Source of the DNA: Chitinophagales bacterium
GTDB lineage: Bacteria; Bacteroidota; Bacteroidia; Chitinophagales; UBA10324
Assembly: GCA_013816805.1 (NCBI GenBank)
Contig: JACDDS010000011.1
Span: forward strand, 62,001 to 126,000
Reading direction: 5' to 3'
Length of the DNA: 64,000 nt
In this document: positions 35,917-41,759 of the stretch, one piece after another
Numbering within the stretch: position 1 is the stretch's first letter
Layout: each line of letters opens with the position of its first letter
Translations under genes and position numbers: made by a program
The notes under the pieces: generated by a model
Databases searched by the model: none
Seen by the model: the letters and a program-made list of their open reading frames with translations, nothing else
Told to the model about the DNA's origin: nothing

Positions 35917-37092
35917 ATGATGTATAAAAATAAATCAGTACTTACTTTTTTTTATTTCCTGCTGATAGCCCAGTACTGCTTTTCGCAGGACATGAAATTC
36001 ATTCCCTACCGCTTTAAAGATCTGTGGGGATTTTCCGATACGAAGGGGAACGTAATACTTCCCACACGGTATCAGCAAGCGAATCCATTCAGTGAAGGCT
36101 ATGCTGTTATAGAATCGGACAATCATTTTTCATTTATTGATGATGATGGAGATTTAAAAATGCCCTTTAAGTATGATTACATAAGCAATTTCCATAATAA
36201 TGTTGCAGTGGTTTCCTTGGCTGAAAAGTGGAAAGTGATTGATACCCGCGCCCATGTGCTTACGAAGAATGACTATGATGCTATAGGCGAATTTTCAAAT
36301 GGACTGGCGCAGGTAAAAGCCGCAAATCAGTATGGATTTATTAATGACAAAGGTGATATTGTGGTAAAGCCACAATTCGATAATGTGCTTCCATTTTCCG
36401 AAAATATGGCAGTAGTTCAATCAGGCAACCTGTTTGGGTTTGTGAATCAGAAAGGCTTTATTGTTATACCGGTTCAATATGAAGGCGCAGCATCTTTTCA
36501 TGATGGTTTGGCGCTGGTGAAAAAAGATTCACTGGTAGGGTTTATAGATAAATCAAATAATGCAGTAATCCCGTTCCAATATAAAAGCGCAAATATTTTT
36601 TCAGAAGGGCTGGCACCTGTAATGAAAGATGGAAAAGTCGGTTTCATAAATACAAAAGGCGATGTGGAAATTCCAATTCAATATGAAAATGCAAATCCTT
36701 TCAGGGAAGGATTTGCCTTAGTGCAGAAAAATGGTTTGCTTGGTTACATTGATAAAAAAGGACATGAAATAATTGCCCCCGAATTTAATATCGCTGATGA
36801 TTTTCATGAAGGGTTCGCTTTAGTGAAAGACAGCAGCTGGAAATTTGTTAATGCCGAAGGAGAAAAATTGATGCTCGATATTCACTACCAGGAAGTAAAA
36901 GATTTTAGCAATGGGCTTGCACGGGTTAAAGGGAACGAAGTGTGGGGATATGTGAATCAATCAGGAAATGAAATAATCGAGCGGAAATATGAAGACGCCC
37001 AGGATTTTAATAACGGATATGCACTTGTTAAGCTCAATGGCAAATGGGGATATATAGATAAAACCGGAAAGGAATTTTTTAAAGAAAAGTAA
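35917..37092 (+). CDS. WG-repeat protein, exported
   Basis: The 391-residue protein has a signal peptide (cleavage near CFSQD) and then consists almost wholly of about eleven WG repeats of roughly 33 residues. Each contains a W/Y/F-G-F/Y-I/V-D/N core followed by KG and a PF-like turn (for example YGFINDKGDIVV, LGYIDKKGHEI, WGYVNQSGNEI, WGYIDKTGKEF). Such repeats form beta-rich scaffolds, often at the cell surface in Bacteroidota, with no known activity. It lies 17 bp after the GT39-type gene, probably co-transcribed, so a role linked to that glycosyltransferase is possible but unproven. Confidence 0.9.
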   Translation: MMYKNKSVLTFFYFLLIAQYCFSQDMKFIPYRFKDLWGFSDTKGNVILPTRYQQANPFSEGYAVIESDNHFSFIDDDGDLKMPFKYDYISNFHNNVAVVSLAEKWKVIDTRAHVLTKNDYDAIGEFSNGLAQVKAANQYGFINDKGDIVVKPQFDNVLPFSENMAVVQSGNLFGFVNQKGFIVIPVQYEGAASFHDGLALVKKDSLVGFIDKSNNAVIPFQYKSANIFSEGLAPVMKDGKVGFINTKGDVEIPIQYENANPFREGFALVQKNGLLGYIDKKGHEIIAPEFNIADDFHEGFALVKDSSWKFVNAEGEKLMLDIHYQEVKDFSNGLARVKGNEVWGYVNQSGNEIIERKYEDAQDFNNGYALVKLNGKWGYIDKTGKEFFKEK

Positions 37093-37127: not shown

Positions 37128-37949
37128 TTATATGCTTAAACTCACCTCTTCTTTTAACCTGTTCTTGATCACCATCAACTCAGTTTCCATCTTCTCTACC
37201 AATGCCAGCAATTCGTCCTTACCTCTTAGTTGTTCCGGAATTTCACTACTGATGTAGTTGCAAAATTTCCATACTTCTTTTACGTCATTGATATCAATTT
37301 CATACGGTTGGTAAGCTGTATTAAGTGAATGAAGCTCTAATTTTTTCTTTCGGCTAATGAGGTTATGAGCTATTTTGAAAACAATTCCTTCATCCTGAGT
37401 TAATAAAATACAAGCATCGCCATTTTTAATGTCGTTCCAGTTTTCAATGTATTCACCGATCACCCAGCTCTTGTCAGGAATGGGCAGCATAGAATCTCCA
37501 TCAATCTGGAACATGCGGTATTTACGATCATCGAAAAGAATGGGCAATTGGAAAGTCGAAAGTTTTTTAATAAAGTCGGGATCGGCATATCCATTCTTAT
37601 AACCTGCTTTTGCTTTTAACGGCACCGCTTCAATATTTTCTTTGTTCCCGCTATCTACAGTAGTGGCAAGCACCCGCAGCTTGCTGCCTGTTATATACAC
37701 ATCATGCCCCTTTTCCAATTCTGATAATTGAAAGCCGGACAGCTTGCTGAGGTCCATCTTTATGAGGGTATCCACGGAGACCTTAAAATATTTTGAAAAG
37801 CCTACGAGTGCCTGGAGTGTGGGATTTTTTACGCTTCCGTTTTCATAGCTGTTTAATGTAGAGCGGCTCATGTTTAATTCGCGTGCTACCATATCCTGGG
37901 TTTTGCTTCGTCTTGTGCGAAGAAGCCTGATATTATTGCTGAAGATCAT
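37128..37949 (-). CDS. XRE/S24 (LexA/CI-like) self-cleaving-type transcriptional regulator
   Basis: This regulator has an N-terminal HTH_3 domain (about residues 6-62; SKTQDMVARELNMSRSTLNS) and a C-terminal S24 peptidase-like domain. The LexA-type catalytic dyad is visible as S153 in IDGDSMLPI and K192 in GIVFKIAHN. An Ala-Gly bond at A115-G116 in LKAKAGYKNG is where LexA/CI-type proteins cleave themselves. It is therefore a plausible DNA-damage-responsive repressor. Its ATG overlaps the stop codon of the DnaE-type gene (ATGA, 37946-37949), so it is translated with that polymerase and probably controls it. Confidence 0.9.
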   Translation of the reverse strand: MIFSNNIRLLRTRRSKTQDMVARELNMSRSTLNSYENGSVKNPTLQALVGFSKYFKVSVDTLIKMDLSKLSGFQLSELEKGHDVYITGSKLRVLATTVDSGNKENIEAVPLKAKAGYKNGYADPDFIKKLSTFQLPILFDDRKYRMFQIDGDSMLPIPDKSWVIGEYIENWNDIKNGDACILLTQDEGIVFKIAHNLISRKKKLELHSLNTAYQPYEIDINDVKEVWKFCNYISSEIPEQLRGKDELLALVEKMETELMVIKNRLKEEVSLSI

Positions 37950-40900
37950 GTCAACTGTTTTTGAATGTTAATTACCTGGTGAAAAGTTGGACCCGGGGCA
38001 CGAGAAGCAAATTTAAATTCACGTACCATATCACACTTTGAAAGCCCGGACTCACGCCGCAGCAATACTATGCTGTTAACCAGGAAGTGCGCCGTGTAGT
38101 CGATTAAATAAAATTCTGAAGTGGCACGGCTGAATTTTTCCTTATCCAACCCTTTTGCAATGGCAAGGTGCGGATGGAAGTGATTTTTTACCGCAAGCTT
38201 CAGTTCCTGTTTTAACTTTTTGCTGACCTCTGAAACTTCTTCCGGGTTAACAATTTTATTGAAGATTGTATGAGGTTTAAAATGGTCGAAGCCATCCAGC
38301 TTTAAATGAAAGGGCTCGCATCTTTCGCTCACTTTCGCAATGGCACGAACCATTTCGGGTTCCATGGTTTCACTCTGAAGAAAGTTACAAAGTATAATAT
38401 CGGGTTTGGAAGCAATGGCCTGGTAATGATCAAACTGACGGTGAAATCTTTTCTTCAGGGATTCAATCTCCTGCCTGATGTGCGGAGGCGGGGCAATTAC
38501 CAGCAGGTATTCATATTGTTTGGAAGAGGGAACTACTACCGGCATGGCTATTGGATCGGGCTTTGAACGTGCAATCGACTCTGCATCATTTTCATACATC
38601 ACATAATCGAGCTTTTGCATTTCGACTACATCGATGCTGTAAAATCCAAAGTCTTCCACCACCTTTCCTTTTATCCAATAACAACCCTTTCCCCGAAAGG
38701 GAAATCTTTTTGTGATATCGGGAAAATGAGTAGTGTCGAAGAAGAACCCGTCTTTATCAAGGAAGGTACCGAACATCATTACTTCACCCTTAATGGTGGT
38801 TGTGGGCTTATAAGTAACATAGTACCCCATTATTTCTACTGCCCTTCCATGATTGATTTTCAACCTGGCAGCCACCAATTCACTTTGCAGGGGCTGTTTT
38901 ATAAGTGTGAATGGCGGGCAGAGAGGAAAACCAAGGATTTCTATTTCATCCCTTGCATCTTCAAAAGGATCATTATATAATTCAGGCAATAAAAAATTCT
39001 TATATCCATTATCAAATAATTCCTTTCGTGCTGTAGATCTCTTTTTACTTCCTATTACTGTATAAATATCCCACAGTAATTGTTTTTTTGTTCTTCCTGT
39101 AAAGCTAAATGCACCAACCCTGATAAGGAGCCGAAGCTGCTCTGCTGCAATAGAAACACGGTTCATGAAATCAACTAAATCTTTAAAGCCTCCATACGTT
39201 TTTCGTTCTTTCAAAATGGCTTCCACTGTTTTTTCTTCCAGCTCTGCCATATGTGTAAATCCTAAAAAAATATCTTTACCATACACCGTTGTAACGCAGT
39301 CACTTTTATTAATGTCGGGTGCATGAATGGCGGCACCTGACATGCGCGCCTCGTGAACGTAATATTCTGTACGGTAAAATCCGCCAAAGTTGTTAATCAC
39401 ACCTACCATAAATTCGATGGGATAATAGGCTTTCAGAAACATGCTTTGGTAGCTTTCCACAGCAAAAGACGCGGAATGCCCTTTAGCAAAGGCATAGCCT
39501 CCAAAGCTTTCAATTTCGCGCCATACTTCATTCGTTAATGCGTCAGGATAGTTTTCCTTCTTACAGTTTGTGAAAAACGTCTGCCTGATCTTTTGAAACT
39601 CCGCACGGCCCCGGTATTTTCCACTCATTCCCCTTCGCAGCATATCCGCCTCGCCCAGAGTAAGCTTTGCAAAATAGTGGGCTACTTTAATCACATCTTC
39701 CTGGTACACCATTACTCCAAAAGTGTCCGGCATTATTTTCCAAAGCTCGGGGATAGATTCTTTCTGGCCGTGAAGCGGATCATGAAAGCGGCGGATATAT
39801 TCGCGCATCATACCGCTGCGGGCCACACCGGGCCGTATGATAGAGCTTGCGGCTACAAGATCCAGGTAAGTCTTTGCACATAGCTTTGCAAGCAATCCCC
39901 GCATAGCCGGAGATTCTACGTAAAAGCAGCCGATCAGTTTTGCATTGGTAAGGTGCCACTCCACTTTCTTATCTTCTTTAAACCGTTTTACATCGTGGAT
40001 ATCAATTTCTTCATTCCTGTTTTTTTTAATGATCTCTACTGCTTCCTTTATATGACCCAAGCCACGCTGACTGAGAATATCAAACTTTGCAAAGCCCACG
40101 TCTTCCGCCTCCAGCATGCTGAACTGAGCGAGGGGAAATCCTTTAGGTGGATTGCTTAATGCAGTATAATAGGTGATCGGTTTATCTGAAATCAAAATGC
40201 CCCCTGCATGAATGCTGAGGTGGTTGGGAAAATCATGGATGCCCCGGCTGTATTGATAGATGAGCCTGATGATGTCATCGTCGGTTTCAGGAAACTCTTG
40301 CGGATCAAGAAGGCCATCAATCTGTGCTTTTGGCAAGCCAAATACCTTTCCCAATTCACGCACTACAGCATTGGCCTGAAAGGTACTGTAGGTTCCTAAA
40401 AGCGCCGTATGGTTTTCCCCGTATTTTTTGAAGATGTATTTAATAATCTCATCACGGTCTTTCCAGGAAAAATCTATATCAAAATCCGGAGGGTTAATGC
40501 GTGATGGGTTAATAAACCGCTCGAAATAAAGATCAAGGTCAATAGGATCTACATCCGTTATTTTAAGTAAATAGGCAACTATTGAATTGGCGCCACTGCC
40601 TCTTCCCACATAAAAAAAATTCCGTAAGCGCGCGTGCTTTACAATATCCCAGTTGATTAAAAAGTAAGAGGTAAACTGCTTTTCCTTAATCAGGTCAATT
40701 TCTTTTTTAAACCGCTCGCGGATCTTTTCATTAGCATTGGGATAGCGGTACTGCATGGTCTCTTCACACTCATTAAGTAATAATTCCTCATCACTCTTTT
40801 CGCTTCCCGTAAAAAACTTTTTGTTTTTATATTGCTCAAACTGAAAATCAATCACGTCGCATTTCAGGAGTAATTCCTCTGTGTTTCGGATGATCACCGG

Positions 40901-41590
40901 CCAGGAAGAAAATATTTTTTTTAACTCTTCTTCCGGAACCATTATTTCATCCGGTGCTGCCTGTTCATTTAGCGGAAGCTTGCTCAGTAATGTATTGTTA
41001 TCGATAGCGCGTAAAAGGCGGTGAATATTAAAATCTGATTTATTCCTGAATGTAACAGGGGCGAGGATCACCAACCTATCAGGTTGGTTTTTCCAGGGTG
41101 AAAAAGGAAGGCGGGTAAGGTCGCCCGGTTTAATACCTATAAATTCATTTTCTTTCAGGGGCAAGCGTGAAGCGGACAAATCTCCTCCATCACGCCGTGG
41201 CTGCGCTATTTGCAATGATGCAAAAGGATAGATTACAAATGCATTCTCAAGCGCAGGTGCACGGGCGGGAATTATTGCTTCCCTGCCGGTTAATCCGGGT
41301 TCGGCTTCCTGCAGGCACTTAGAAAGAAACTGGTTTAATTCATGAAAACCAGTATGGTTTTTTGCAATGCCAACAAAATGCTGCTGCATTCCATTTCTGA
41401 AGTCAATGCCTGCTACAGGTGTTACAGGATAGTTTTTCGCATGACGATGGAAATCTATAATGGCGGACGTATTATTAATGTCGGTCAACACGAGCTTTTG
41501 CACGCCTTTCGCAGCGGCCTCCTTTAGCAAAGCCTCAGGACTCATGGTTCCGAACTTGAAGCTGTAATAGGTATGGCAGTTGAAAAACAT
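37946..41590 (-). CDS. dnaE: DnaE-type DNA polymerase III alpha fused to a 2'-5' RNA ligase-like (2H) domain
   Basis: This is a 1214-residue C-family polymerase, probably the second, translesion-type DnaE of the genome. An N-terminal PHP domain (about 1-110) lacks key metal ligands: it has NCHTYYS in place of HxHSxYS, and LTDINN in place of TDHG. The polymerase core has GRGSGANSIVAYLLKITD near 329, the PDFDIDF aspartates D369, D371 and D373, and the third aspartate D504 in AKFDIL. FGGYAFAKGHSASFA is near 696, and an OB-like domain is near 915-995. Beyond residue 1024 comes an extra domain (YEYLLVIAPPPHIRQEIESL) with histidines in FKPHTIF (H1107) and HPHLAIA (H1141), the two-histidine pattern of 2H phosphoesterases. 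It precedes the S24 regulator with an ATGA overlap. Confidence 0.88.
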   Translation of the reverse strand: MFFNCHTYYSFKFGTMSPEALLKEAAAKGVQKLVLTDINNTSAIIDFHRHAKNYPVTPVAGIDFRNGMQQHFVGIAKNHTGFHELNQFLSKCLQEAEPGLTGREAIIPARAPALENAFVIYPFASLQIAQPRRDGGDLSASRLPLKENEFIGIKPGDLTRLPFSPWKNQPDRLVILAPVTFRNKSDFNIHRLLRAIDNNTLLSKLPLNEQAAPDEIMVPEEELKKIFSSWPVIIRNTEELLLKCDVIDFQFEQYKNKKFFTGSEKSDEELLLNECEETMQYRYPNANEKIRERFKKEIDLIKEKQFTSYFLINWDIVKHARLRNFFYVGRGSGANSIVAYLLKITDVDPIDLDLYFERFINPSRINPPDFDIDFSWKDRDEIIKYIFKKYGENHTALLGTYSTFQANAVVRELGKVFGLPKAQIDGLLDPQEFPETDDDIIRLIYQYSRGIHDFPNHLSIHAGGILISDKPITYYTALSNPPKGFPLAQFSMLEAEDVGFAKFDILSQRGLGHIKEAVEIIKKNRNEEIDIHDVKRFKEDKKVEWHLTNAKLIGCFYVESPAMRGLLAKLCAKTYLDLVAASSIIRPGVARSGMMREYIRRFHDPLHGQKESIPELWKIMPDTFGVMVYQEDVIKVAHYFAKLTLGEADMLRRGMSGKYRGRAEFQKIRQTFFTNCKKENYPDALTNEVWREIESFGGYAFAKGHSASFAVESYQSMFLKAYYPIEFMVGVINNFGGFYRTEYYVHEARMSGAAIHAPDINKSDCVTTVYGKDIFLGFTHMAELEEKTVEAILKERKTYGGFKDLVDFMNRVSIAAEQLRLLIRVGAFSFTGRTKKQLLWDIYTVIGSKKRSTARKELFDNGYKNFLLPELYNDPFEDARDEIEILGFPLCPPFTLIKQPLQSELVAARLKINHGRAVEIMGYYVTYKPTTTIKGEVMMFGTFLDKDGFFFDTTHFPDITKRFPFRGKGCYWIKGKVVEDFGFYSIDVVEMQKLDYVMYENDAESIARSKPDPIAMPVVVPSSKQYEYLLVIAPPPHIRQEIESLKKRFHRQFDHYQAIASKPDIILCNFLQSETMEPEMVRAIAKVSERCEPFHLKLDGFDHFKPHTIFNKIVNPEEVSEVSKKLKQELKLAVKNHFHPHLAIAKGLDKEKFSRATSEFYLIDYTAHFLVNSIVLLRRESGLSKCDMVREFKFASRAPGPTFHQVINIQKQLT

Positions 41591-41632
41591 GATAGGATTA
41601 GTACTTGCGACAGTGTCTTGCCGGATGATTAC

Positions 41633-41659
41633 ATTACAATCTTTATTACAGATTGCAAT
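41633..41659 (-). promoter_or_regulatory. Inverted repeat, possible operator of the dnaE/S24 operon
   Basis: ATTACAATCT (41633-41642) and AGATTGCAAT (41650-41659) form a 10-bp inverted repeat with one mismatch and a 7-nt spacer. It lies 43-69 bp upstream of the dnaE start, where a repressor of the CI/LexA type would bind. The link to the S24 regulator is inference from position and symmetry. Confidence 0.45.
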
Positions 41660-41759
41660 TTAATCATTATTCTAAAACTAACAATGCAGGGTGATATAAA
41701 TAAGGCAACACTTCATCACTGCAAAAGGTATCACTGCAAAATTATAATCAATATAAAAG

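Follow-up and report, generated by a model that had tools for sequence, protein, structure and literature searches.

Enzymes of the 2H superfamily have been described in RNA processing and in nucleotide signalling, and what many of the bacterial members do is obscure. The 2H domain of human ASCC1 belongs to a complex with a link to the repair of alkylated DNA. On the side of the polymerases, the closest described system is the PolY2-DnaE2(B)-RecA set of Bacteroidetes, a putative mutasome, and the passages that deal with it in the two papers concerned make no mention of a 2H domain (PMC6511836; PMC12926913). According to a survey of DnaE proteins from 2013, no DnaE2 has a CTD and the tails are mostly unstructured (PMC3919608). 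Accessory domains that recur next to DinB, UmuC and DnaE2 or as fusions to them, and that are found with radical-SAM photolyase-like genes, have been described in the form of SRAP and ImuB-C. The 2H domain treated here resembles them in both respects, but their fold is unrelated to 2H and their description does not mention 2H or LigT (PMC3765255). The cinA-ligT-recA operon of Deinococcus does combine a 2H gene with recA, although its LigT is a standalone protein and not a polymerase domain (PMC2669436). No 2H protein or RNA ligase tied to TLS or SOS, or to the PolY-DnaE2 system, was found in the literature, of which coverage was partial, so that this absence is a weak one.

The window, a stretch of 64,000 nucleotides from a Chitinophagales bacterium, encodes on its minus strand (37946-41590) a dnaE2-type translesion polymerase of 1214 residues with a C-terminal 2H domain, in a single ORF without interruption. 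Pfam matches to PHP (residues 5-92), DNA_pol3_alpha (270-506), the finger domain (512-680) and HHH_6 (752-838) bear out the complete polymerase core of the preliminary description, and the catalytic Asp motifs of the polymerase are kept (PDFDIDF at 368-374 and KFD at about 502-504). The genome holds two DNA_pol3_alpha genes, the present one and one other DnaE (DnaE1), and one Y-family polymerase, DinB, which shares an operator with the fused gene. As far as the available passages on the PolY2-DnaE2(B)-RecA mutasome go, the locus thus agrees with it in having a second DnaE beside DnaE1, and in the coupling to an apparently active DinB/PolY, which is operonic in one related genome (G002, with dinB directly upstream), close upstream in another (G108) and seen in the common operator in the window's genome. 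The polymerase is of the DnaE2 type, and since the 2013 survey denies a CTD to every DnaE2, an architecture with a folded C-terminal domain is new to this group. Between dinB and the fused gene of G108 lies a small gene (L106:2687-3166) that by eye appears IS200/REP-type transposase-like.

The C-terminal domain spans residues 1024-1195 (38006-38521, minus strand) and is the only 2H domain in the genome. Residues 1034-1182 match PF13563 (2_5_RNA_ligase2) with an E-value of 4.5e-16 and 59.7 bits (cut-off 27), while the NCBIfam models PRK13679 and 2_5_ligase match below their cut-offs. An AlphaFold2 model built from a 52-row alignment has a 2H fold (pLDDT 92.4, pTM 0.83). Its closest solved structure is Bacillus subtilis YjcG (PDB 2d4g; PRK13679), which is also the best sequence match in the PDB (Foldseek E-value 5.6e-11; VIA-align Z 21.1, rmsd 1.8 over 163 residues). 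Structures of LigT, CPDase and AKAP18 come next. The profile and structure checks proposed in the preliminary description therefore both came out in favour of a 2H domain. The fold is shared with the LigT/ThpR phosphoesterases at Z 17-18 and with ASCC1 (KH and 2H; PDB 8tuk, 8tly) at Z 13-14, the latter being, unlike the window protein, eukaryotic and without an attached polymerase. In contrast to YjcG and LigT/ThpR, the window domain lacks the catalytic HxT motifs and is joined to a polymerase.

The positions of the catalytic motifs were set by profile alignment to YjcG (2d4g), 2fyh and 1vdx and by an alignment of 92 domains. Motif 1, which corresponds to the earlier PHxTL position, is degenerate in the window protein (SKPDII, 38393-38410, minus strand), with Asp for His and Ile for Thr (D1064-x-I1066). 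Motif 2 is half kept (HPHLAIA, 38156-38176, minus strand; H1141-x-A1143). Of the four motif residues H1141 alone thus remains, and the two H-x-T/S motifs of an active 2H enzyme are not present. The two-His pattern proposed earlier stands for H1141 and for the Ala in the usual place of Thr/Ser, which the alignments confirm, but not for H1107. The latter lies in FKPHTIF (38261-38281, minus strand), a non-catalytic strand that aligns with 'pvnNVIYIK' of YjcG and not with HxT, ruling it out as a catalytic His. Judged by profile, fold and motif alignment, the domain is a member of the 2H superfamily but not a canonical enzyme. With motif 1 lost and motif 2 lacking its Thr, it is unlikely that this polymerase brings along an enzyme for RNA ends or cyclic nucleotides, as had been suggested.

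The DnaE2-2H fusion also occurs in two further genera of the family, G002 (63% identity) and G108 (61-63% for the two), the latter on record JAFDYS010000023.1. Because two other genera carry it, in an assembly of 10 contigs (G002) and in the MAG SZAS-60 (G108), an assembly artefact is ruled out, and the recurrence adds to the ORF, the Pfam matches and the modelled fold in upholding the fused architecture first proposed. Within the family the fusion is seen in 3 of 16 genomes, and in four relatives belonging to genus g4 the polymerase stops at the position equivalent to residue 1001 and a 2H gene is absent. Beyond the family, a search of 396 genomes from the order, 395 from the class and 395 from the phylum turned up no DnaE2-2H, and a tblastn search against phages for an origin of the domain returned no match. 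The module is dispensable, given that the survey yielded only these three sequences in 3 of the 16 genomes.

Motifs 1 and 2 read DII/HLA, HLQ/CLA and EIV/QLF in the three fused domains, every one of them broken and each domain lacking at least one catalytic His, which rules out a canonical two-His enzyme in all three cases. The domain might still be an enzyme of changed chemistry or substrate, processing for example blocked 3' or nucleotide-linked ends ahead of the polymerase by means of H1141 and other residues. Such a reading would agree with the retention of H1141, the confident fold and the intact motifs of two DinB-fused relatives (G455 and G778) and of 63 of the 85 standalone relatives. 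However, it is unlikely in view of the D-x-I of the window's motif 1, the loss of both His in G108 and of the motif-2 His in G002, and the lack of a common replacement residue. Alternatively, the domain could control the polymerase as a sensor of a small nucleotide (a cyclic nucleotide or a 2'-5' oligonucleotide), in the manner of AKAP18, which binds AMP without catalysis. The loss of catalysis and the fold matches to AKAP18-AMP and LigT-nucleotide complexes would suit a sensor, but the residues of the motif pocket are not conserved across the three fused proteins and no signalling gene was noticed nearby, which makes this a rather improbable explanation.

Between the three DnaE2-2H genomes, codon positions 1, 2 and 3 of the 2H domain are identical at about 0.6, 0.7 and 0.4 of sites. 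Positions 1 and 2 are thus conserved (58-70%), while the third position (about 40%) has diverged as far as that of the polymerase core (0.39-0.45), from which it follows that the domain is constrained as a protein. This bears on the idea of an accidental capture, by which a neighbouring 2H gene was fused through loss of a stop codon and is carried along as a neutral or decaying passenger. A patchy spread (3 of 16 family genomes, with g4 relatives devoid of any 2H gene) and a decaying catalytic site are what a passenger would be expected to show. Conservation of positions 1 and 2 far above a saturated position 3 is not, and members of the same 2H subfamily are separately fused to DinB and tied to umuDC/radical-SAM SOS loci. 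Capture, already disfavoured, therefore has a slim chance of being correct, and the phrase 'simply captured', used of a neighbouring gene in the preliminary description, falls short of explaining a subfamily repeatedly tied to DinB, DnaE2 and UmuDC loci.

The fused gene forms an operon with a repressor of the S24 (LexA/CI-like) type (37128-37949, minus strand; HTH_3 and Peptidase_S24), the ATG of which overlaps the dnaE2 stop codon in ATGA (37946-37949). The repressor has its key residues, Ala-Gly in AKAGYK, Ser in GDSML and Lys in VFKIA, and thereby the CI-type HTH and S24 domain with Ala-Gly and Ser/Lys that mark the SOS repressor of Bacteroidetes (PMC8565304). Its convergent neighbour encodes a WG-repeat-like protein (35917-37092). 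The dnaE2 ATG is preceded, at a distance of about 37 bp, by an operator-like bipartite palindrome, GATTACATTACAATC-N9-GATTGCAATTTAATC (41627-41665). The palindrome of about 39 bp is also found before the genome's own dinB, some 90 kb away, and before dinB of G002 and G108, and the 3.57-Mb genome has four occurrences of its core, two of which are those at dinB and dnaE2-2H. It is unlike both published SOS motifs of Bacteroidetes, GGA-N5-TCC and CTAA-N5-TTAG, the second of which was shown as an operator by EMSA (PMC8565304) and was not found at the fused loci. As the window operator differs from these two motifs, SOS control is something that we infer here. The consensus TTRCAATC-N9-GATTGNAA before dinB and dnaE2 (41627-41665, L110:3727, L107:8402 and L106:1116) may represent a third class of SOS operator in Bacteroidota.

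A class-wide search with a DnaE2-2H profile gave as its best matches beyond the family frames of 519-610 residues, which Pfam identifies as Y-family polymerases of the DinB type bearing a 2H domain at the C-terminus. They occur in five genomes of other families, G475, G455, G310, G391 and G778, the last of which joined the survey after the other four. The Pfam 2H match is clear in G475 and G455 and weak in G310; in the partial G391 it is below threshold and the domain was found by the custom profiles of this analysis. Both motifs are intact in G455 (HIT/HIT) and, read by eye, in G778 (HVT/HMT), while G475 has HIM/HMT and those of G310 and G391 are not intact. An unfused dnaE2 is directly next to the DinB-2H gene in G475, G391 and G778, is separated from it by a small SRAP gene in G310 and lies away from the locus in G455. 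Across the eight fusion genomes the 2H domain is on DinB or on DnaE2 but never on both: where DnaE2 carries it, in three genomes, DinB has no 2H end, and where DinB carries it, DnaE2 is free of it. Among the plasmid matches listed, none was a DinB-2H copy with a query coverage of 80% or more. In G310 a compact SOS cassette runs from radical SAM through DinB-2H and SRAP to dnaE2 (L097:2769-9549). The dnaE2 beside DinB-2H in G778 (L155:277-3287) is in two frames (661 and 359 residues), through either a frameshift or a fault of the assembly. By eye alone, DinB shows a stretch resembling RecA-N.

Taken together, we consider it fairly probable that the product of the gene is the DnaE2-type polymerase in a PolY-DnaE2(-RecA) mutasome of Bacteroidota, and that its 2H end, having lost the two-His site, is retained in the complex for a structural or binding role. 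Against a wholly non-catalytic role stands the kept H1141, with which a residual or altered activity is conceivable. The reading is a sequence-based one, built on the fold, the loss of motifs, the purifying constraint, the operator shared with dinB, the S24 operon, the single 2H domain per mutasome (on DnaE2 or DinB) and the link of the subfamily to SOS polymerases, and with it the guessed connection to repair holds. DNA damage would lead to cleavage of the S24 repressor, upon which dinB and dnaE2-2H would be induced together. The 2H domain could then dock onto a partner (DinB, RecA or the clamp) or onto a primer or nucleotide end and so tether the complex. The drift of the domain among DinB, DnaE2 and standalone proteins is of the 'Rosetta stone' kind and predicts a physical interaction.

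The wider subfamily was delimited in a tree of 92 domains (4 DinB-fused, 3 DnaE2-fused, 46 standalone from family f20 and 39 others from Bacteroidota), in which one branch parts the 7 fused and 46 standalone f20 domains from the 39 others with an SH-aLRT of 95, this being the sole measure of clade support on long branches. A umuC, umuD or PA0069-type radical-SAM gene lies within about 1.5 kb at 35 of 35 standalone loci of the subfamily compared to 2 of 39 others. CTAA-N5-TTAG is present at most 300 bp upstream of the 2H domain at 33 of the 35 loci versus 1 of 39 controls (0.2 loci expected by shuffling). Seven loci with radical SAM only (L018, L114, L120, L122, L124, L125 and L140) have it as well, so the box is not merely that of a divergent umuDC. 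Furthermore, a clamp-binding-like C-terminal QxxL[F/Y] ends 33 of the 46 standalone proteins and none of the 39 controls. Since the loci stem largely from a single family, these counts do not represent independent observations.

Standalone relatives with intact motifs and such a tail probably perform the ancestral enzymatic job at the fork, where they may act on ends at stalled forks. Because the closest relatives of the window domain are found inside or beside other damage-tolerance polymerases under SOS-type control, 2H proteins seem to be a hitherto overlooked component of this mutagenic machinery. A broader proposal, which we put forward tentatively and would not yet bet on, is that the subfamily constitutes a general SOS-induced, clamp-recruited translesion factor of Bacteroidota, which in the standalone forms and in some DinB fusions would be an enzyme for ends that are damaged or contain RNA, and on DnaE2 a non-catalytic tether. 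The SOS boxes, the clamp-binding-like tails and the fusions to both mutasome polymerases give the subfamily a testable place in damage-induced mutagenesis, as a possible missing component of the PolY-DnaE2 system.

In f20, 2H genes also often occur as tandem pairs (L021, L026, L030, L070, L072, L125, L129, L130, L136, L139 and L140), of which one or both have a broken HxT and usually one alone carries QxxLF; these are possibly pairs of enzyme and pseudoenzyme. Unusually long frames of 417-486 residues contain 2H domains in genus g274 of the same family (e.g. G633:C1:4900530). Outside the mutasome-type group, an intact standalone 2H gene in G512 (L099:4054-4695) is convergent with and abuts dnaE2, possibly another independent link between the two.
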